From Synechococcus sp. PROS-9-1 (GTDB taxonomy: Bacteria > Cyanobacteriota > Cyanobacteriia > PCC-6307 > Cyanobiaceae): a stretch of 64,000 bases of DNA. How positions within the stretch are numbered: the first letter of the stretch is position 1; every line of letters starts with the position of its first letter. The notes beneath the pieces were generated by a model. The model saw only the letters and a program-made list of their open reading frames with translations, made no database searches and was not told the origin of the DNA. Positions 4,210 through 36,653 of this stretch are shown here, piece after piece. The stretch lies in NCBI RefSeq assembly GCF_014279775.1, contig NZ_CP047961.1:1364001-1428000 (forward strand), read 5' to 3'. The position numbers were made by a program, and so were the translations under genes.

Positions 4210-4371
4210 ATGTCCGCACCTCTTCAAAAATACGAATTGTCGTCGATGAAGTGGGCGTCAAATGGAGAACTCTCTACCCATGACATCCATAAGCTGCTCA
4301 GCAAAATGAGTCAGGCACAAGCCATTGAACGCCAAACCCAGTGCCTTGAACCAATAGAAATTCCAAAATAA
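4210..4371 (+). CDS. Small hypothetical protein (53 aa)
   Basis: Fifty-three residues, ATG to TAA, with normal protein composition: SAPLQKYELSSMKWASNG, then a helix-like HDIHKLLSKMSQAQAIERQ and a short tail. The start is an ATG with no strong ribosome site upstream. No family recognised. It lies in the orphan-rich region together with several others of the same size. Confidence 0.45.
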   Translation: MSAPLQKYELSSMKWASNGELSTHDIHKLLSKMSQAQAIERQTQCLEPIEIPK

Positions 4372-4419
4372 TCTCATCAGCAGTGCTCGGCGGATCATTC
4401 AAACTCTTCTCATAAGCCC

Positions 4420-4506
4420 ATGGCGATTAAAGCGAAACTAAATAAAAAATACAGAAATGCGTCGGAACAAGTAAAAAGTCTTTCTGATCCCAAGGTTATT
4501 CAGTAG
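4420..4506 (+). CDS. Possible tiny basic protein (28 aa)
   Basis: ATG-to-TAG frame of 28 residues with a lysine-rich start (AIKAKLNKKYRNASEQ). It ends 54 bases before the next small gene. Either a very small protein or the decayed front part of a longer gene; evidence is weak. Confidence 0.2.
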   Translation: MAIKAKLNKKYRNASEQVKSLSDPKVIQ

Positions 4507-4560
4507 ATCCCACACATTTGCCCCGATCGAGGCCAAAATATCGATAACGCTGATGTCTTG

Positions 4561-4758
4561 ATGTACACGATTGAACACTTGTCCGAGGAAAGCTGGACAC
4601 CTGAGGTGACCAGAGAAACCGAGTTCAAAGCATTTGTAGATGCTCGGACAAAATGTATGGCCACAGGGAAAATTTATAGGGTTGTGGACGACAAGCACAA
4701 TGTGAGGTATACAATCACACTGGATGCATGCAAAAAGCAACTATTTTCAAATCACTAA
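4561..4758 (+). CDS. Small protein of the MYxIxxLS family (65 aa), copy 1
   Basis: Sixty-five residues beginning MYTIEHLSEESWTPE and continuing RETEFKAFVDAR, with a C-terminal beta-like part (KIYRVVDDKHNVRYTITL). The first 29 residues align without gaps to the protein encoded at 9018-9224 on the minus strand: both have MYxIxxLS, a Trp at residue 12, a Glu at residue 20 followed by a hydrophobic residue, and Ala-Phe. They are therefore paralogues. Function unknown. A TTG immediately before the ATG is ignored. Confidence 0.6.
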   Translation: MYTIEHLSEESWTPEVTRETEFKAFVDARTKCMATGKIYRVVDDKHNVRYTITLDACKKQLFSNH

Positions 4759-4777
4759 CAACTATTTCTAAAAATCA

Positions 4778-4918
4778 TTACGGCAAGGCCGGCATAGCCT
4801 CTTGAAGTTCAGAAGAGGAGTCTAAATCGCTAACTCCACGAGTTAGCTGAAACGCCAAAATCGCAAAGCCAAGAAAGGCAATAATAACGATTACAAGTAA
4901 AATTTTTGTAGGAGTCAT
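4778..4918 (-). CDS. Small single-span membrane protein (46 aa)
   Basis: Forty-six residues, ATG at 4918, TAA at 4778. One hydrophobic helix (ILLVIVIIAFLGFAILAF, residues 6-23) follows a short MTPTK start, then a polar acidic tail (SDLDSSSELQEAMP). This is the layout of a small anchored protein with a soluble tail. It is convergent with the preceding 65-aa gene, 19 bases apart. No family name recognised. Confidence 0.55.
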   Translation of the reverse strand: MTPTKILLVIVIIAFLGFAILAFQLTRGVSDLDSSSELQEAMPALP

Positions 4919-5075
4919 AAAGAGAACAAGATTGAATCAACTATAGGAAGAATTTAAAAAAATCTAAGTCAATGAAACATCCCAACAAATTAGCAAGCAC
5001 ATATCAAGCAAATTAGACCTAACAAAAAACTAGGTAGCATTAAAATAGCCCCTTATATAACAGAATGAAAGATAT

Positions 5076-5279
5076 ATGAGCAAACGGGGGCAAGTCAATC
5101 TGGAAAATTATGGACAAGAGAAAGTCACCATTGAACAAATCCAATACGGCAGGTTGAGTAGGTACAAAAAAACCGCTCAATACAAGAACGGTCATCTACC
5201 AAGCAATCCCCATCACCCGGCCTTTTACACCACATTGAGATGTGATGCGCAGATCATAGTAACGACATACACCAAATGA
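5076..5279 (+). CDS. Possible hypothetical protein (67 aa)
   Basis: An ATG-initiated frame of 67 residues; the N-terminal half (KRGQVNLENYGQEKVTIEQIQ) is protein-like, the C-terminal part (NPHHPAFYTTLRCD) less so. No ribosome site and no recognised family. Could be a chance frame in AT-rich sequence. Confidence 0.25.
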   Translation: MSKRGQVNLENYGQEKVTIEQIQYGRLSRYKKTAQYKNGHLPSNPHHPAFYTTLRCDAQIIVTTYTK

Positions 5280-5541
5280 GCATGAGTATCGATTTACTCA
5301 AGATTGTGACTACATTGTGTAAAGCTATGAAAACGGGCAATAGCTAATAAAACCGTTGGTGTGCTGAGATAACACTACACATACATATTCAGCAGCAAAA
5401 TTCAAAACTTCGCCAAGTCGCGATACCGAAGCAATATCAATTGATGGCCAGAAATTCATATAAGTGCTATCAACCATTGATCATCTCGACAAAAACACAA
5501 TTAGCTTAATCAAGGCCAAATAATACAACCAGAAGAAGCAA

Positions 5542-5757
5542 TCAAATTGGCACAATTGAATACTCTATTCTCTCGTCAGAGCAGCATAAATCTCCATAAA
5601 AGCGCTCTAGTTCATCATAGGCATCATCGTAACAAACAAATTGCATCTTGGTGATCGGATCTTCCTGAAAATCGTCCCGAACGATGTGATACAAAGGAAC
5701 AATCGGATTTAGCTTTTTTGCACTCGAACGCATGGTTTCAAAAGAGTCATTTTCCAT
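5542..5757 (-). CDS. Hypothetical protein (71 aa), acidic
   Basis: Seventy-one residues from the ATG at 5757. The protein has a Lys/Pro-containing start, then YHIVRDDFQEDPITKMQF and an acidic aromatic helix (YDDAYDELERFYGDL), finishing with a predicted beta strand. The frame extends to 5784 but those residues (Cys/His-rich) look untranslated. No family recognised; the alternation of short strands and helix suggests a small folded domain. Confidence 0.55.
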   Translation of the reverse strand: MENDSFETMRSSAKKLNPIVPLYHIVRDDFQEDPITKMQFVCYDDAYDELERFYGDLCCSDERIEYSIVPI

Positions 5758-5958
5758 ATAAATACAATGCAAACAAAGAATCACTCTAGGTCATTAATAG
5801 GCCAATGACAATTAACGCAAAACAGCAAGGAGTAAGTCGATCAATCAAATACTATTATGAACCCAAGGAAGTCTCACTCTAAACAAAGTTCAACGCAAGT
5901 TAGACACAAAGCATAAGGGGCTATTGGACGTACTCAAACGAAACTCGCGTCTAAACCA

Positions 5959-6243
5959 TCAAGAGACAACGACACCCTTTCCGGAATAGAAAGCAACCCG
6001 ATAACGAATGGCTTCTGCATCAGGCTTTGGTGTCTCATAACTCCATGCCACATTCGTAATAATCTGATCGTCAACAATCAAGTCCCAGTAGCGTGCTGTA
6101 CCCTTCCAACCACACACCGATGTATGTCTAGAGTCGCGAAAGTATTGGAGATGCAGGGCATCACGAGGGAAATAAGCATTTCCATCCACATAAACGATAT
6201 CATCGCTTATGGCCAGAATGCTACCGTTAAAAATTGCTTTCAT
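5959..6243 (-). CDS. DUF427 domain protein
   Basis: Ninety-four residues from the ATG at 6243. The family signature is visible: an N-terminal MKAIFNG strand, AISDD, FPRDAL, then C-G-W-K-G-TARYWDL with the conserved Trp-Lys-Gly and Tyr-Trp, followed by VAWSYETPKPDAE and a final strand. DUF427 proteins are small single-domain beta proteins (tyrosyl/Trp-rich fold) of unknown biochemical role, sometimes linked to nucleotide handling. An upstream in-frame ATG pair at 6276 would add 11 residues and is less likely. Confidence 0.85.
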   Translation of the reverse strand: MKAIFNGSILAISDDIVYVDGNAYFPRDALHLQYFRDSRHTSVCGWKGTARYWDLIVDDQIITNVAWSYETPKPDAEAIRYRVAFYSGKGVVVS

Positions 6244-6265
6244 TGCGAACAGTCTTTTTACCATA

Positions 6266-6460
6266 TTAAGTAGCAATATGCTGAGGTGTGCGAATTGGCA
6301 TCACACATCCAATGGATCGGAGGAAACCGTAAGGAATAACCAATAGAATGAGATTGCATACAACAAGCACCAGTGAAGATAATAAAGCCAACTCAGCTTG
6401 TGTCAAATAAGACAAAAAGATTAATACACTAAAAAAGGTATCTGGAAGGTGCGGCAGCAA
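6266..6460 (-). CDS. Possible small membrane protein (64 aa)
   Basis: Sixty-four residues with two hydrophobic helices (about residues 10-30 and 30-48) separated by a short polar turn. It sits just upstream of and co-directional with the DUF427 gene. No ribosome site is obvious and AT-rich DNA often gives such frames, so confidence is low. Confidence 0.3.
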   Translation of the reverse strand: MLPHLPDTFFSVLIFLSYLTQAELALLSSLVLVVCNLILLVIPYGFLRSIGCVMPIRTPQHIAT

Positions 6461-6654
6461 TACTCAAGCCATATCAAACAATCACAAGAGATCTGGTTAG
6501 TGTTAGCAACGAAAACGTAACGACATCAAAAGAGCAGACAATGCAACAAGTCTTTATTCTCTGCAAAAATCTATTTCGATCTGAAAAGGAACGGACACAA
6601 AACGGACGCAATGCCCAGATGCTGACCTAGACCATGGATAACTGAGTCAATCCA

Positions 6655-6819
6655 GTGGCCTTTCTCAGCAGAATCTGCGCAACATCCAAGGGTTCAACAA
6701 TCGATGCCGTTGGGAATGGGAAATATCGAGTGTGTGACAAGGAATTCACATGCTCAGAGGTTGTTGGGTTATGGAAAGCCTATGAAATGCTTAAAGCTAA
6801 GGAACAGCGAGTGAGCTAA
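6655..6819 (+). pseudogene. Decayed fragment of a small protein gene
   Basis: The frame ending at the TAA at 6817-6819 encodes a good-looking C-terminal segment (GNGKYRVCDKEFTCSEVVG, then LWKAYEMLKAKEQRVS). There is no ATG in frame; a stop lies at 6643-6645 and the only plausible starts are GTG at 6655 or none. The tail looks like the end of a genuine protein whose front has been lost. Origin unidentified. Confidence 0.3.
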
Positions 6820-6938
6820 CAGATGTATGAGCGTCCATACAACTGAACAGACTTCCACTTAGACCAAGCTTGTACATAGCGACAGTTATAAGAGAAGAAC
6901 AAAGTCATGATCTCCCACCCAGGTCATAGGTCCATGGA

Positions 6939-7316
6939 TCAATAACATGCATCACCCTGCTTTAGCTTATAAGCAGCTTCAGGATGTGCGTTCTTCCAAA
7001 TAACACAATTCTTCTGTTCTTTCGACAAACTTTTGAATGTCTTGACTGCAGAAGAGCCGGATGGTTGATCTGTATTTTCTAATTGTTTTATATCTGCTGC
7101 TTGAGGGTTAGAGACATTGGGATACTCACTATCAGGAGATAATTCACTCAAGTAAGGCTTAGACTCAGGATTACTCACTTCCTTGGGGGAATCCAGCTGA
7201 ATCTCACTGTTTAAGGTGTGTCCAATTAAAAGTGAACCAACGGAGAACCCAACCAAAGAGAAGCCTATTCCTACCAATAATTCCATCCTATTTGCTGGGC
7301 GTAATCGTTTAAGCAT
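6939..7316 (-). CDS. Membrane-anchored hypothetical protein (125 aa)
   Basis: A 125-residue protein with a basic start (MLKRLRPANR), one hydrophobic helix (about residues 13-33), a long Ser/Pro/Glu/Asn-rich and probably disordered middle, and a compact C-terminal part (KEQKNCVIWKNAHPEAAYKLKQGDACY) containing two cysteines that could form a disulphide. The topology suggests an N-terminal anchor with the tail outside the cytoplasm. No family recognised. Confidence 0.55.
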   Translation of the reverse strand: MLKRLRPANRMELLVGIGFSLVGFSVGSLLIGHTLNSEIQLDSPKEVSNPESKPYLSELSPDSEYPNVSNPQAADIKQLENTDQPSGSSAVKTFKSLSKEQKNCVIWKNAHPEAAYKLKQGDACY

Positions 7317-7783
7317 ATTCTTCCCATATACGTTATCAATATACTAAAAACGGGATCAATTTTCAACTAGGTGTAGTAATGAAAAACAATCAAGATATTT
7401 CAAGAAGTAAGCAAAAACTCCTAATCGTGCCTTGCTCTGATTAGCGCGAAACAAATGGATTCCGCACAAAGATCATAACGACGCATCTCGAAGATGGAGA
7501 TCGTGATCAAATCTTGAACATCTTTCGTAGAATACAAGATTTAAGTTAGGCGCAATCAATCTCGAATGAATGGGAGGGTAAGATATTTATGCAAGATAAA
7601 AGTTGTCAAGACCATTGCAAAAGTGAAAACTTGCCCCTACGCAATTCATGAAATAATTAGCTTGACCGAAGAAAATTCATGCCGATCTGACAGGAATGAG
7701 CGATTGATCTATGCACTTTAAAATCTGGATGCATTAGTCATCCCAGTGAATAGAGGCATTCGATTCGCCAAGCCAAATCGTGA
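7317..7783. other. Gene-poor stretch, no supported gene
   Basis: About 470 bases, AT-rich, with only frames shorter than 25 codons. It includes the start region of the membrane-anchored protein on the left and the 3' side of the next minus-strand gene on the right. No hairpin or RNA gene recognised. Confidence 0.4.
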
Positions 7784-8023
7784 TCAGCTGTGACGTCCGA
7801 GAGGTTCAATCCAGTCCACTAGGACCTCACGATGATGTAGCCAGCGCTTCGAGACCCGGCACCCGAGATTAACTTGACCGTCATCCATGAGACGACCCAA
7901 GCGAATGGCAGCTGCTTCTTCAGGCCGCGAAAATGTCTGCAAATGATCAGTCAACCAAGTGACCTCATCTTCCGTAATTACCCCAGTGGAGAGGGTTTCG
8001 AGCACGAGTTCGCCAACAGTCAT
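7784..8023 (-). CDS. Hypothetical protein (79 aa)
   Basis: Seventy-nine residues from the ATG at 8023: MTVGELVLETLSTGVITEDE, then a Trp-containing helix (VTWLTDHLQTFSRPEEAAAIRLGRL) and a basic C-terminus with two His-Trp elements (RWLHHREVLVDWIEPLG). The 19 residues upstream in the open frame are excluded because MTVGEL starts the folded region. Likely a conserved picocyanobacterial orphan family; function unknown. Confidence 0.7.
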   Translation of the reverse strand: MTVGELVLETLSTGVITEDEVTWLTDHLQTFSRPEEAAAIRLGRLMDDGQVNLGCRVSKRWLHHREVLVDWIEPLGRHS

Positions 8024-8127
8024 GGGGTTTGTAACGATTTCGTTACATCCTGGCGCCTCGCTCGGCCAACCGTGGCCCACGGTCCTAATGAAGAGTTTTT
8101 AAGATTGCTAGATCAATAGGCAATTCC

Positions 8128-8286
8128 ATGCAAGCTACTCTTGCCCAGCAATTCGAAACAGAGGCAATCAAGCGTCAAATCGACTCCTCAACTGACGTAG
8201 CGGAGCTGAAAGAGCTTGCCAAACATCTTGCAGATCTCTACTTAAAGCAACGCGTTGCCACTGCTTGGGTGATTGCAAATAAATGA
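8128..8286 (+). CDS. Small helical protein (52 aa)
   Basis: Fifty-two residues, ATG to TGA, almost entirely helical in composition: QATLAQQFETEAIKRQID, then VAELKELAKHLADLYLKQR and a short hydrophobic end. The heptad-like Leu spacing suggests a helical hairpin. It is divergent from the 79-aa gene with about 100 bases between the starts, enough for promoters on both strands. Confidence 0.6.
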   Translation: MQATLAQQFETEAIKRQIDSSTDVAELKELAKHLADLYLKQRVATAWVIANK

Positions 8287-8586
8287 TCCAGCAATGGTCA
8301 TCGCTTTCCAACACTAAATTTTCTGCTGTGGCTCCAAGGACATTTCAGCTTCGTTTTTAAGATCTTTCTCACAAAGTTCTCTTTTCGTTCAATGCAGTAG
8401 CAGACTTGATTTAATTCAAGAGCGTTGAGCCCTCCATCGTGATGCCTGCCTCATCACATCAAGGCACAGCGTTTGTGGTCAGCGTGATTAAGAGACAATG
8501 AGCTACCGCTGCCAGCAAGACTATTGATCAAGAGGATGTGATCCGTTTTTCATTTTCACAGGGATGAGCTCAGCCCCTCACCAAAT

Positions 8587-8742
8587 TCAGAGTTGAAAAA
8601 CGGTTCCAAGCAGGCTTGCTGGATGCTCAAACTTCTCTGCACTGCGACGCTCGAGCTGAGCAATCATCACGATATGAGCCGTGGTTCGAATCGCTGAGAG
8701 CAGCGCTAAGCCGATACAGAGTGGACAGTGAGTCAAAGTCAT
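8587..8742 (-). CDS. Small hypothetical protein (51 aa)
   Basis: Fifty-one residues, ATG at 8742 and TGA at 8587. An N-terminal hydrophobic segment contains a Cys-Pro-Leu-Cys pair (residues 6-9), then ALLSAIRTTAHIVMIAQLERR and a polar tail. The CxxC could bind metal or be redox active, but with no homologue recalled this is a guess. It occupies the otherwise empty space between 8287 and 8826. Confidence 0.35.
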   Translation of the reverse strand: MTLTHCPLCIGLALLSAIRTTAHIVMIAQLERRSAEKFEHPASLLGTVFQL

Positions 8743-8825
8743 GAAGCCAATTTTGGAGCCAGTTCATGCCTCTGACCCCATTATTTGCAATTTCTTGACT
8801 TAATGGAAGATTCGGCAGCTGATGA

Positions 8826-9014
8826 TCAGAAGCGACAACCCACTTCGTGGATCAGATCGATGCTGTTGGGCCATCGACGAATGTGCTCGTAAAACTCCAT
8901 AGCAAGGATGCGAGCCTCCCAAGCATCAGATGCATAGAAACAGGCCTCCTGCTTGCTGCCATCAGACATCTTGTAGCGAATCGTGAAATGTTTGTAGTGA
9001 CTGAAATAAGCCAT
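8826..9014 (-). CDS. Small hypothetical protein (62 aa)
   Basis: Sixty-two residues with clear folded-protein character: FSHYKHFTIRYKMSDGSKQ forms two strands, then an aromatic helix (SDAWEARILAMEFYEHIRR) and a tail. It lies 3 bases downstream of the preceding minus-strand gene (9018-9224), so the two form an operon. Function unknown. Confidence 0.7.
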   Translation of the reverse strand: MAYFSHYKHFTIRYKMSDGSKQEACFYASDAWEARILAMEFYEHIRRWPNSIDLIHEVGCRF

Positions 9015-9017
9015 CGG

Positions 9018-9224
9018 TTAAGCCACCAATTCGTGATCAGTTTGAATCGCAGTCGATCCAGAGCGGTTCATGATGCAAACCATCTCATCCAAAGGGTTGA
9101 GGACTCTCGCAGATTGTCCTTCCTGCTGGCTGAGGGCATGAGCAGCCCAAAAGGCCTCGATTTCGGTTGCTCTGGCTGCATGATCGGTCCAGCCGGAAGA
9201 GCTCAGCTCTTGAATTCTGTACAT
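9018..9224 (-). CDS. Small protein of the MYxIxxLS family (68 aa), copy 2
   Basis: From the ATG at 9224 the protein begins MYRIQELSSSGWTDH and continues ATEIEAFWAAHAL; this aligns with the 65-aa protein at 4561-4758 over its first 30 residues, with the same Tyr, Ile, Leu-Ser, Trp, Glu and Ala-Phe positions. An alternative ATG three codons upstream (9233) is equally possible. The C-terminal half (SARVLNPLDEMVCIMN) also matches the strand-rich end of copy 1 loosely. It is the first gene of a two-gene operon with 8826-9014. Confidence 0.65.
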   Translation of the reverse strand: MYRIQELSSSGWTDHAARATEIEAFWAAHALSQQEGQSARVLNPLDEMVCIMNRSGSTAIQTDHELVA

Positions 9225-9426
9225 CAATGGCATTTCGTATGTCCTCAATTTATGCACCCAACCTGCCAAACACGGTGAAAACCACGCACATCGATCAGAA
9301 GTCTTCGGGATCACGGATGATTCATGTGGTGATAAACACAAATAACCGCGATTTTTCAAGCTTTCAGCACATTCAAAGGCATAACAGACAGCGAACAGAA
9401 CTCATCCAACCTGGATGCAACAGACC

Positions 9427-9458
9427 AATAAAAAGGCCGTGACCCCCCGGCCACGGCC
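9427..9458 (-). terminator. Rho-independent terminator of the Nif11 gene
   Basis: A 7-bp GC-rich stem (GGCCGTG 9435-9441 with CACGGCC 9452-9458, loop of 10) followed, when read on the minus strand, by TTTTTATT. It lies about 110 bases downstream of the Nif11-type gene and 200 bases ahead of the next minus-strand start, so it should separate those transcripts. Confidence 0.65.
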
Positions 9459-9486
9459 CACGAGACGCATTCATCGAACTTGATCT

Positions 9487-9509
9487 GAGCCCTTCCCATT
9501 GGGCTCTTT
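9487..9509 (+). terminator. Hairpin with short T-run, unassigned
   Basis: A 6-bp stem (GAGCCC / GGGCTC) with an 8-base loop followed by TTT on the plus strand. No plus-strand gene ends here, so it may terminate a small non-coding transcript or be a second structure within the 3' region of the minus-strand Nif11 transcript. Confidence 0.4.
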
Positions 9510-9565
9510 CGTTATGGCGCATGCCATTTCTCAGACACATCAGTGTTTGTACTCAGCAGCTTGAA

Positions 9566-9784
9566 TCAGTAACGGTGTGGGTATTCACCAGGATGATCGA
9601 TACGAAGAACTCGCATCCCTGTCAGTGACTTGCCAGATAGCAACAGCAACTCGCTTCCAGACACGGGGTAGCCGAGCTCCTGAGCGATCATCGCAACCTC
9701 AGCGGCTGTCATTGCTGACTGGACGCGGCTTTGCAAACGACCATCGCGTTGCAAGTGCTCCAAAAAGGACTGGAGAGCGCTCAA
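9566..9784 (-). CDS. Nif11-domain protein
   Basis: Seventy-two residues. The N-terminal 50 residues follow the Nif11 pattern: SALQSFLEHLQRDGRLQ, a helix with Ala-Met-Thr-Ala-Ala-Glu, then IAQELGYPVSGSELL. Nif11 domains act as leader peptides for lanthipeptide-type natural products in marine picocyanobacteria, but many copies are stand-alone and lack a core peptide. Here the tail after the domain is about 20 residues with no Cys and few Ser/Thr, and no modification enzyme is nearby, so a product precursor is unlikely. Its own terminator follows at 9427-9458. Confidence 0.75.
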   Translation of the reverse strand: MSALQSFLEHLQRDGRLQSRVQSAMTAAEVAMIAQELGYPVSGSELLLLSGKSLTGMRVLRIDHPGEYPHRY

Positions 9785-9897: not shown

Positions 9898-11394
9898 ATG
9901 ACGTCCAAGCCGCGATGGAGTACGAATCAAGTCATGACCCAACACCAATCTCCAGCGATCGCCGGCCGAGAAGCCGATCTGCATTCCCTTTTGCAGAATC
10001 GCGAGCCTGTCTGGATAGAGCACACAAATCTGAAGCTTGAGGGGATCAGCTCAGCGTTCGCTTGTGCTCTACACATGCATCAGCCAACGATCCCGGCCGG
10101 CAAAAGTGGAGAACTGGTTTCCCATCTGCAATACATGGTTGAGAACCAGGGAGAGGGTGACAATCACAACGCGGAACCCTTCGCTCAGTGCTATCGACGG
10201 ATGGCTGATCTCATTCCGCAACTGATCAGCGAAGGATGCAATCCACGCATCATGCTCGATTATTCGGGCAACCTCCTCTGGGGAGTTCACCAGATGGGTC
10301 GAGAAGACATCACACGCGCACTGCGCTATCTCGCCTGTGATCCAGACATGCAACGCCATGTGGAATGGCTAGGTACGTTCTGGAGCCATGCGGTAGCTCC
10401 ATCCACACCGATTCCCGATCTCAAGCTTCAGATCAGTGCCTGGCAACACCAGTTTGTTGATCTTTTCGGGGAGGAAGCACTCAAACGGGTGAAAGGGTTT
10501 TCACCCCCCGAAATGCATCTTCCAAACCACCCAGATACCCTTCATGCCTTCATCCAGGCTCTCAATGATTGTGGTTACAGCTGGTTGATGGTTCAAGAAC
10601 ACAGTGTAGAAAACCCAGATGGCTCACCTCTGACCCATGCACAGAGGTACCTCCCCAATCAACTGGTCGCACGGAGCTCAACAGGAGACACAGCACGGAT
10701 CACTGTTTTAATCAAGACACAAGGCTCTGACACCAAACTGGTGGGCCAAATGCAGCCCTATTACGAGGCGCTCACCCTGGGGCAACAACCGCTTGGACGC
10801 AGGCATATTCCATCAGTGGTAACGCAAATCGCGGATGGCGAAAACGGGGGAGTGATGATGAATGAATTCCCAGAGGCGTTTCTTCAAGCGCACCGCAAAG
10901 CGTGCAATCAGAACCCGGTGGGAGAGGGGCAAGCCCAAACGGTGGCAATCAACGGAAGCGAATGGCTTGAGCTTCTCGAGCAGGCAGGAGTAACGACCAC
11001 CGATTTCCCCGAAGTACAGGCAGTACAGCAGCACCGGCTATGGCAGCAGGTGGGACGTGGTTCAAATCGTGAGACTGTCAAAGCAGCAATCGATGAACTC
11101 AAAGCCAGTAATAGTGGCTTCTCGATGGAGGGAGCCTCATGGACCAACAACCTCAGTTGGGTTGAGGGGTACGACAACGTGTTGGAACCGATGAACCAAC
11201 TCAGCGCAGCCTTTCATCAACGTTTCGACCAGCAAACGGCAGAAAATCCATCATTCACGACAGATGAGAGGTACCAAAAAGCACTGCTGCATCTGCTTCT
11301 ACTTGAAACAAGCTGCTTTCGTTATTGGGGCCAAGGCACATGGACGGAGTACGCCCGCAACATTCACAGCCGAGGCAAGGCTTTACTGAACTAA
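9898..11394 (+). CDS. Glycoside hydrolase family 57 protein
   Basis: A 498-residue protein with the GH57 conserved blocks in order: CALHMHQPTIPAG (region 1, around residue 57), the region 3 block GFSPPEM whose Glu (about 205) matches the family nucleophile, and ADGENGG whose Asp (about 313) matches the acid/base residue. GH57 enzymes act on alpha-glucans (amylase, branching or transferase activities), fitting glycogen metabolism in a cyanobacterium; which activity cannot be told. Size agrees with short cyanobacterial members. The start is uncertain: ATG at 9898 or 9934, neither with a clear ribosome site. Divergent from the Nif11 gene. Confidence 0.85.
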   Translation: MTSKPRWSTNQVMTQHQSPAIAGREADLHSLLQNREPVWIEHTNLKLEGISSAFACALHMHQPTIPAGKSGELVSHLQYMVENQGEGDNHNAEPFAQCYRRMADLIPQLISEGCNPRIMLDYSGNLLWGVHQMGREDITRALRYLACDPDMQRHVEWLGTFWSHAVAPSTPIPDLKLQISAWQHQFVDLFGEEALKRVKGFSPPEMHLPNHPDTLHAFIQALNDCGYSWLMVQEHSVENPDGSPLTHAQRYLPNQLVARSSTGDTARITVLIKTQGSDTKLVGQMQPYYEALTLGQQPLGRRHIPSVVTQIADGENGGVMMNEFPEAFLQAHRKACNQNPVGEGQAQTVAINGSEWLELLEQAGVTTTDFPEVQAVQQHRLWQQVGRGSNRETVKAAIDELKASNSGFSMEGASWTNNLSWVEGYDNVLEPMNQLSAAFHQRFDQQTAENPSFTTDERYQKALLHLLLLETSCFRYWGQGTWTEYARNIHSRGKALLN

Positions 11395-36505: not shown

Positions 36506-36559
36506 AGCCCAAGTCCCCGTTCCTTGGCTTGGGCTGGTCTGCGCCTCGCAAAAACGAGG
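36506..36559 (-). promoter_or_regulatory. Two stem-loops in the DUF4278 5' leader
   Basis: AGCCCAAG (36506-36513) pairs with CTTGGGCT (36528-36535), and CCTCG (36544-36548) with CGAGG (36555-36559). Read on the minus strand both lie immediately upstream of the GGAG ribosome site, the inner one ending only about 7 bases before it. They could form a leader that controls translation or protects the message. Confidence 0.45.
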
Positions 36560-36653
36560 TGAACGATGCAATGCGTAGCGGTTGCTACTGCATAAACATA
36601 GTGATTGGTCAAGCAGATCGTCGTTCATCACGATACAAAGACACAAATCAGGA

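Follow-up and report, generated by a model that had tools for sequence, protein, structure and literature searches.

An uncatalogued family of small proteins in Synechococcus-type cyanobacteria and a conserved element upstream of most of its members

Two small genes, here termed P1 and P2, lie on opposite strands in a 64,000-nucleotide (nt) stretch, referred to below as the window, of the 2.27-Mb single-contig genome of Synechococcus sp. PROS-9-1. P1 (positions 4561–4758, + strand) encodes a protein of 65 residues beginning MYTIEHLSEESW, and P2 (9018–9224, − strand) one of 68 residues beginning MYRIQELSSSGW; both were defined by their open reading frames, homology searches, a tree and the ratio of non-synonymous to synonymous change (pN/pS), and P1 also by its predicted fold. 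Each gene is preceded by an element of about 25 nt. That of P1 (CTGATCCCAAGGTTATTCAGTAGATCCC) spans 4484–4511 on the + strand, with the A of its ATCCC at 4487, 74 nt before the start codon, and that of P2 (GTGATCCCGAAGACTTCTGATCGATGTG) spans 9287–9314 on the − strand, with the corresponding A at 9311, 87 nt before the start codon.

The P1/P2 family

An ungapped local alignment of P1 with P2 covered residues 1–43 with 16 identities (37%), namely M1, Y2, I4, L7, S8, W12, T13, R18, T20, E21, A24, F25, A28, G36, R40 and V41, and gave a BLOSUM62 score of 73, compared with 21.2 ± 4.0 for shuffled sequences, none of 20,000 shuffles reaching 73. The homology suggested in the original prediction over the first 30 residues thus holds and extends further; of the shared residues that it named, MYxI, LS, Trp12 and Ala-Phe were correct, whereas the glutamate assigned to position 20 is residue 21. 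When used as single queries, P1 and P2 each recovered the other from the whole genome (E 0.006–0.011), and family profiles matched both at E 1e-21 to 1e-31, values that are not independent, since both sequences are inside the profiles.

Single-protein searches gave matches at E ≤0.01 to P1 in 22 of 31 genomes of the genus and to P2 in 23 of 31. The profile search proposed in the original prediction revealed many more copies: a profile of 22 rows detected members in 69 of the 300 genomes searched within the taxonomic family, spread over 8 of 59 genera and with up to nine copies per genome, and a broader profile of 30 rows found it in 30 of 386 genomes sampled across the phylum, every one of them in the same taxonomic family. 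The latter profile marked 10 places in one genome (G018), several containing internal stops. Close relatives were found in 12 named loci, 11 of them from Synechococcus and one from a metagenome-assembled genome labelled Porticoccaceae. The PROS-9-1 genome itself holds three copies, the third being located at 980 kb, 388 kb from the pair.

In the alignment of 89 members, Trp12 is invariant, Ala24 and Ala28 are each found in 88 and Arg40 in 82; P1 and P2 both carry these four core residues, and intermediate proteins, such as MFQIEELTDAGW...ARSKSDADGHTYRVIS, bridge both ends of the family. Duplicates, a frameshifted copy (L145:4030) and a copy having no start codon near the expected place (L134:5634) were left out of this alignment, and duplicates together with L012, L032 and L041 out of a smaller set of 43 rows. 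In one strain (G007) the P1 frame is shifted close to its end, and one locus (L116:4303-13869) contains three near-identical copies plus an apparent decayed fourth having an intact element at 6571. Family members had no match near the curated cut-offs in Pfam or NCBIfam, P1 and P2 had none in PADLOC, and PHROGs gave weak matches only (best E 0.005). A description of the family or of its upstream element was not found among literature titles and abstract openings, nor when searching with the motif letters, and PMC3744912 yielded no locus that could be mapped. The many homologues, and an alignment far above those of shuffled sequences, dispose of the doubt that the original prediction had attached to the pair. 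P1 and P2 belong to a real, uncatalogued family of proteins of about 65 residues, so far seen only in Synechococcus-type cyanobacteria.

A midpoint-rooted tree of the 89 members, based upon 66 columns, separated P2 and 28 others (sub-type B) from P1 and 59 others (sub-type A) with a branch support of 100/96; most other forks in this tree are unresolved, and the program warned of long branches meeting, including the joining of the P2 group with the third copy. Both sides hold several genera, and the pair is therefore old and not the product of local amplification. The proposal that the family had been amplified in this island-like segment is consequently supported by neither the tree nor the copy number. 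Lineage-specific copying is seen elsewhere, with three near-identical copies within 10 kb in one genome (G214) and two in another (G018). When non-independent pairs were pooled, pN/pS came to 0.055 for P1 (7 orthologues) and 0.096 for P2 (8 orthologues), and both genes are under purifying selection.

The upstream element and the genes that carry it

The sequence TGATCCCAAGG precedes P1 in an alignment of eight strains, with TGATTCC in one of them, and TGATCCCGAAG precedes P2 in 9 of 9 aligned strains. The consensus of about 25 nt, TGATCCC(A/G)AAG N4 YYnGTnRnTT, is shared throughout most of the family: within 96 distinct upstream regions of the fetched set, ATCCC[AG] was present in 85 and the strict form TGATCCC[AG]A in 68, where 300 base shuffles gave a mean of 0.1 and a maximum of 1. 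Counted from the A, positions concentrate at −72 to −89 from the start codon. Beyond the anchoring core, A at +6 (98–99%) and T at +21 (89–98%) are conserved, and degeneracy is mostly purine (R) at +7, +8, +16 and +19 and mostly pyrimidine (Y) at +13, +14 and +22.

When, as a held-out test, a matrix trained on 32 sites from other genera was run over both strands of the whole window, the element of P1 ranked first (25.4 bits) and that of P2 second (24.1 bits), followed by a third site at 15.2 bits; the best sites of 60 simulated windows had a mean of 13.6 and a maximum of 19.8. A run with 33 sites, including three source records of unchecked genus, gave the same ranks with a simulated maximum of 22.1. 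Over 875 kb of fetched sequence, 77 of 79 sites of at least 18 bits precede family members in a scan where training and test sites overlap, the remaining two preceding a decayed-member-like frame (L116) and a ferredoxin-like open reading frame (L148). P1 and P2 thus both carry the element, which the third copy of the genome lacks. The bare 9-mer TGATCCCRA is unspecific, occurring at 116 places in the genome, mostly inside long open reading frames as judged from 30 that were inspected.

Two other identities for the element were considered and set aside. Reading it as a translated leader peptide (NTG ATC CCR AAG) gave 29, 28 and 28 cases over the three frames, with stops anywhere, and as a structured leader RNA it showed neither a consensus fold nor covariation beyond the null; Rfam covariance models had no match over the elements in window positions 4300–9600 or in 10 other loci. 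The P2 frame is open for about 80 codons further upstream in several strains, stops interrupting it earlier in PROS-9-1. An in-frame N-terminal extension of P2 corresponding to this open frame of about 82 codons was likewise rejected, and the ATG starts were retained, because the reading frame of the element differs among other members.

A model of the element built from sequence only was run on 21 genomes, of which 15 have the family and six are genomes of the genus where the profile found no member (in G022, a single one with E 4e-4). The run yielded at least 147 matches at E up to 1, scoring having covered 150 of the 620–887 first-look candidates in each genome. Inspection of 86 loci, representing 85 distinct sites, assigned 23 to the family (one site twice), at least 12 to chlN in 12 of the 21 genomes, at least eight to a DUF4912 gene in eight genomes, at least eight to the gene of an unnamed 68-residue protein in eight genomes, and at least one each to ferredoxin and Nif11 genes. 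Three more element-containing leaders precede ferredoxin-like open reading frames in fetched sequence (15.9–18.1 bits). The PROS-9-1 genome has at least nine matches, before P1, P2, chlN and the DUF4912 gene, with three coding or unclassified and two uninspected; with the 33-site matrix, its chlN site scored 21.0 bits and its DUF4912 site 27.6. The chlN product of this genome matched solved ChlN chains (E 1.7e-39) and the other eleven were assigned by the same opening sequence. The DUF4912, Fer2 and Nif11 assignments come from Pfam, for one protein each. A coding stretch resembling 'ILKEGFGI' mimics the element in several genomes and was placed among the coding or unclassified matches.

The distance from the A of ATCCC to the start is 75–86 nt for chlN, 76–78 for ferredoxin (two cases), 80–85 for the 68-residue protein (with an earlier ATG at 36 in four) and 81 for Nif11 (one case, with GTG). 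The likely start of the DUF4912 gene is a GTG found 27 nt beyond the element; a spacing of 81 nt, to a later ATG, was dropped in favor of this GTG, because the match to Rho_N starts at position 13 of the profile and synonymous changes outnumber non-synonymous ones in the 19 codons before the ATG (167 compared with 81). The 68-residue proteins (MGFQEE..RYRGFVLL..WLVRPERSPM; RYRGF.LL....W.VRPERSPM..LPFRTP) were seen in L243, L245, L246, L249, L258, L269, L287 and L311, and the element precedes their genes even in some genomes that gave no member of the main family. The Nif11 gene with an upstream element is in L316.

It could be argued that duplicated genes simply dragged an ancestral promoter along with them and that the element is inherited baggage without common regulation, since members are homologous and shared upstream DNA could be inherited. 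We regard this as very improbable: the DNA flanking the element is nearly unconserved while the element persists, and the element also precedes the unrelated chlN, DUF4912, ferredoxin, Nif11 and 68-residue protein genes.

Genomic surroundings and predicted fold

The pair lies in a segment of low GC content (42–44% at 3–9 kb, compared with 47–57% elsewhere in the window). Its description as a region of orphan genes was partly apt, many neighbors being nameless, but clusters of open reading frames that include these neighbors recur in 9–11 loci, mostly of the same clade. A single-copy gene with a Glyco_hydro_57 domain (9934–11394, + strand; Pfam PF03065, 2.7e-6), hereafter the GH57-type gene, borders P2. 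Clustering was analyzed in 17 of the 30 profile-positive genomes, those being single contigs with at least two copies, with one length rounded and copies with internal stops kept. Of the 69 copies in these complete genomes, 26 had a neighboring copy no more than 5 kb away (random mean 1.3), and a member lay within 20 kb of the GH57-type gene in 12 of the 17 (random mean 1.1); as the genomes are related, the random expectations serve as a guide only. In a genome of another genus (G186), one copy of each sub-type flanks the GH57-type gene, about 3.5 kb apart and on opposite strands, and the same two-copy layout, judged by position, is found in G139. Given this clustering and these layouts, the P1/P2 locus has probably housed the family for a long time and undergone rearrangement since.

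Immediately beside P2, 3 nt downstream, lies a gene for a protein of 62 residues (P3; 8826–9014, − strand), which the original prediction had pointed to as a possible conserved neighbor. It belongs to a separate and wider family (P0003), found in 31 of 31 genomes of the genus and, in a wider sample, in 51 of 121 genomes and 28 of 59 genera. P3 adjoins P2 in all nine fetched loci having a P2 orthologue, and no copy was found in fetched loci lacking one. It was also tried as a third member of the P1/P2 family and rejected, with a profile–profile comparison probability of 1.5% (P-value 0.033). Its pooled pN/pS was 0.023 (9 orthologues), it matched phrog_8866 weakly (E 5e-4), and a model from four near-identical sequences predicted a beta-beta-alpha-beta core with a predicted local distance difference test (pLDDT) score of 77. 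P3 is one of four copies in the PROS-9-1 genome, the others being at G000:C1 1187037, 1840581 and 2183861, and a matched protein of its family is identical across six genomes, PROS-9-1 included.

Further features of the window were noted in their own right. Three unnamed small-protein families, at 4210–4371, 6655–6819 and 8128–8286 (all + strand), recur near family members in 16, 23 and 23 of the 69 clustered loci, respectively, and have no Pfam match near the cut-off. A Nif11-domain protein of 72 residues is encoded beside P2 (9566–9784, − strand), and a Glutamine-II riboswitch aptamer was found at 36508–36568 (− strand; Rfam, 64.7 bits), with another in a ferredoxin-gene locus (L273).

An AlphaFold2 model of P1 from 19 aligned sequences shows a beta-beta-alpha-beta-beta arrangement with a C-terminal helix (mean pLDDT 90.9), and this fold is confidently predicted for the family. 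The best matches among solved structures were phage Dmd (Z 6.1, with an rmsd of 2.4 A over 54 aligned residues) and AcrIF9 (Z 5.8), where according to the tool a Z below 8 may merely reflect a common arrangement; matches to the Rubisco small subunit and PsaD (Z about 4) were taken as just that. With predicted viral structures, phage small proteins of unknown function reached E 0.007 with a template-modelling (TM) score of 0.75.

These structural matches could indicate that the family proteins are Dmd-like antitoxins or phage-derived inhibitors, which we find unlikely. A profile search at E up to 10 gave three weak sequence matches to solved structures, Dmd not being among them, and PADLOC, as stated above, was silent. 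The RnlA toxin was found in none of the 31 genomes of the genus, in a search that was silent for control genomes too. A phage origin was also not borne out by sequence, as phage records had no match to P1 or to one distant member (P2 was not run) and viral contigs had none to profile A2. An exact element-like pattern did occur in 25 viral contigs, with downstream open reading frames matching the family no better than E 0.055.

The family proteins would most likely serve as small binding or inhibitor modules acting on partner proteins, given their small size, their strong conservation and a general shape that they have in common with some known inhibitors of about 60 residues.

Possible action of the element

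Taken together, the sequence comparisons are, with roughly an even chance, to be explained by P1 and P2 being two sub-types of one lineage-specific family in which most members are co-controlled through the element of about 25 nt. Homology, purifying selection, clustering in other genomes and the shared upstream element are observed. Joint control would cover P1 and P2, though not the genome's third copy, and would extend to chlN and, in some genomes, to ferredoxin, DUF4912, Nif11 and the unnamed 68-residue proteins. The nature of these companion genes suggests a light, redox or iron signal.

The element may act in the transcribed 5′ leader, and a trans-acting factor would then recognize it there, a protein being less likely in this role than a small RNA that base-pairs with the site; we give this about even odds. 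The spacing of the element is similar between the family and chlN, and at the DUF4912 gene it lies too near the likely start for an activator site upstream of transcription, so that it should there be within, or at the very start of, the transcript. The element is linear, one-sided and not palindromic. At its conserved degenerate positions, variation comprised 107 transitions and 62 transversions, a bias counted in favor of a leader site because G–U pairing would allow purine-to-purine and pyrimidine-to-pyrimidine changes. In published work, chlN is named as being targeted by the small RNA PsrR1 (PMC6202907), and in Synechocystis the small RNA IsaR1 is stated to target, among others, ferredoxin Fed1 and ChlN (PMC8136909).

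Instead of a leader site, the element could be a DNA site, an operator or a piece of the promoter, used by a transcription regulator such as the redox regulator PedR, with the family as its main regulon. PedR activates chlLNB in Synechocystis, making chlN a known target (PMC13421787, PMC4500134), R/Y degeneracy is common in operators, and a linear motif of about 25 bp with neither a consensus RNA fold nor covariation above the null would suit an operator. The lack of a palindrome and the DUF4912 site 27 nt before its likely start speak against it, and the PedR consensus as printed, RWWTRGGYNNYY (PMC13421787), does not fit by eye on either strand, with an A following the reverse-strand GGG in the anchored sites. 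Weighing the start-near site, the pattern of variation, the reports on small RNA targets and the misfit of PedR, we consider an operator a serious possibility, somewhat less probable than an RNA-level leader site.

Several observations weigh against joint control through a leader site and against the proposed role of the proteins. ATCCC[AG] is absent from 11 of the 96 upstream regions, including that of the third PROS-9-1 copy; several of the 11 belong to genes that come second in a tandem pair and could share a transcript with the gene before them. The held-out matrix scored low for some members (L135 1.3, L139 −12.8, L138 −4.9), and 33 of the 85 inspected sites were coding or unclassified, the element model thus not being clean at E up to 1. 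Transition-biased degeneracy is common also in protein-binding sites and in ordinary mutation. A partner small RNA was not found in a hunt that is incomplete, and the PsrR1 sites described in the cited source are at ribosome-binding regions and not 80 nt upstream (PMC6202907). The likeness of the predicted fold to known binding proteins is weak, with a best Foldseek E of 0.22, which is not significant, and the Z of 6.1 given above.

Marine Synechococcus genomes hold many unnamed small genes that offer no handle on function. For one such family, membership is now defined, a fold has been predicted, selection is in evidence and, most importantly, a cis element is shared, and as the element also marks chlN and some ferredoxin genes, a set of hypothetical proteins becomes a testable regulon; its location before a chlorophyll-making gene hints at when the cell turns the family proteins on or off. 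In broader terms, and as a tentative proposal, this may be a picocyanobacterial regulon not seen before. Here a factor acting in trans, for which a small RNA is a plausible candidate, would read a leader site of about 25 nt and thereby couple an expanding set of inhibitor-like small proteins to how the cell is supplied with proteins for chlorophyll making and electron transfer, with copied genes tending to keep the site.

With regards to known systems, the P0003 family resembles the P1/P2 family in being small, paralogous and predicted to have a beta-beta-alpha-beta core, but differs in its sequence profile and its wider spread over genera. Phage T4 Dmd and AcrIF9 are, like P1, of about 60 residues with a single beta-beta-alpha-beta-beta-like domain, a likeness in shape only, as identity in the structural alignments is 2–14% and a sequence relation is undetectable; unlike them, the P1/P2 family is cellular and multi-copy, and no toxin partner was found. 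The PedR regulon is similar to the gene set of the element in that it includes chlN, whereas its printed operator consensus differs by eye from the element logo on both strands. IsaR1 and PsrR1 are compared here as candidate pairing RNAs only, the element being positioned unlike the ribosome-binding site used by PsrR1; their reported regulons nonetheless resemble the gene set of the element, with chlN being targeted by both and ferredoxin by IsaR1.

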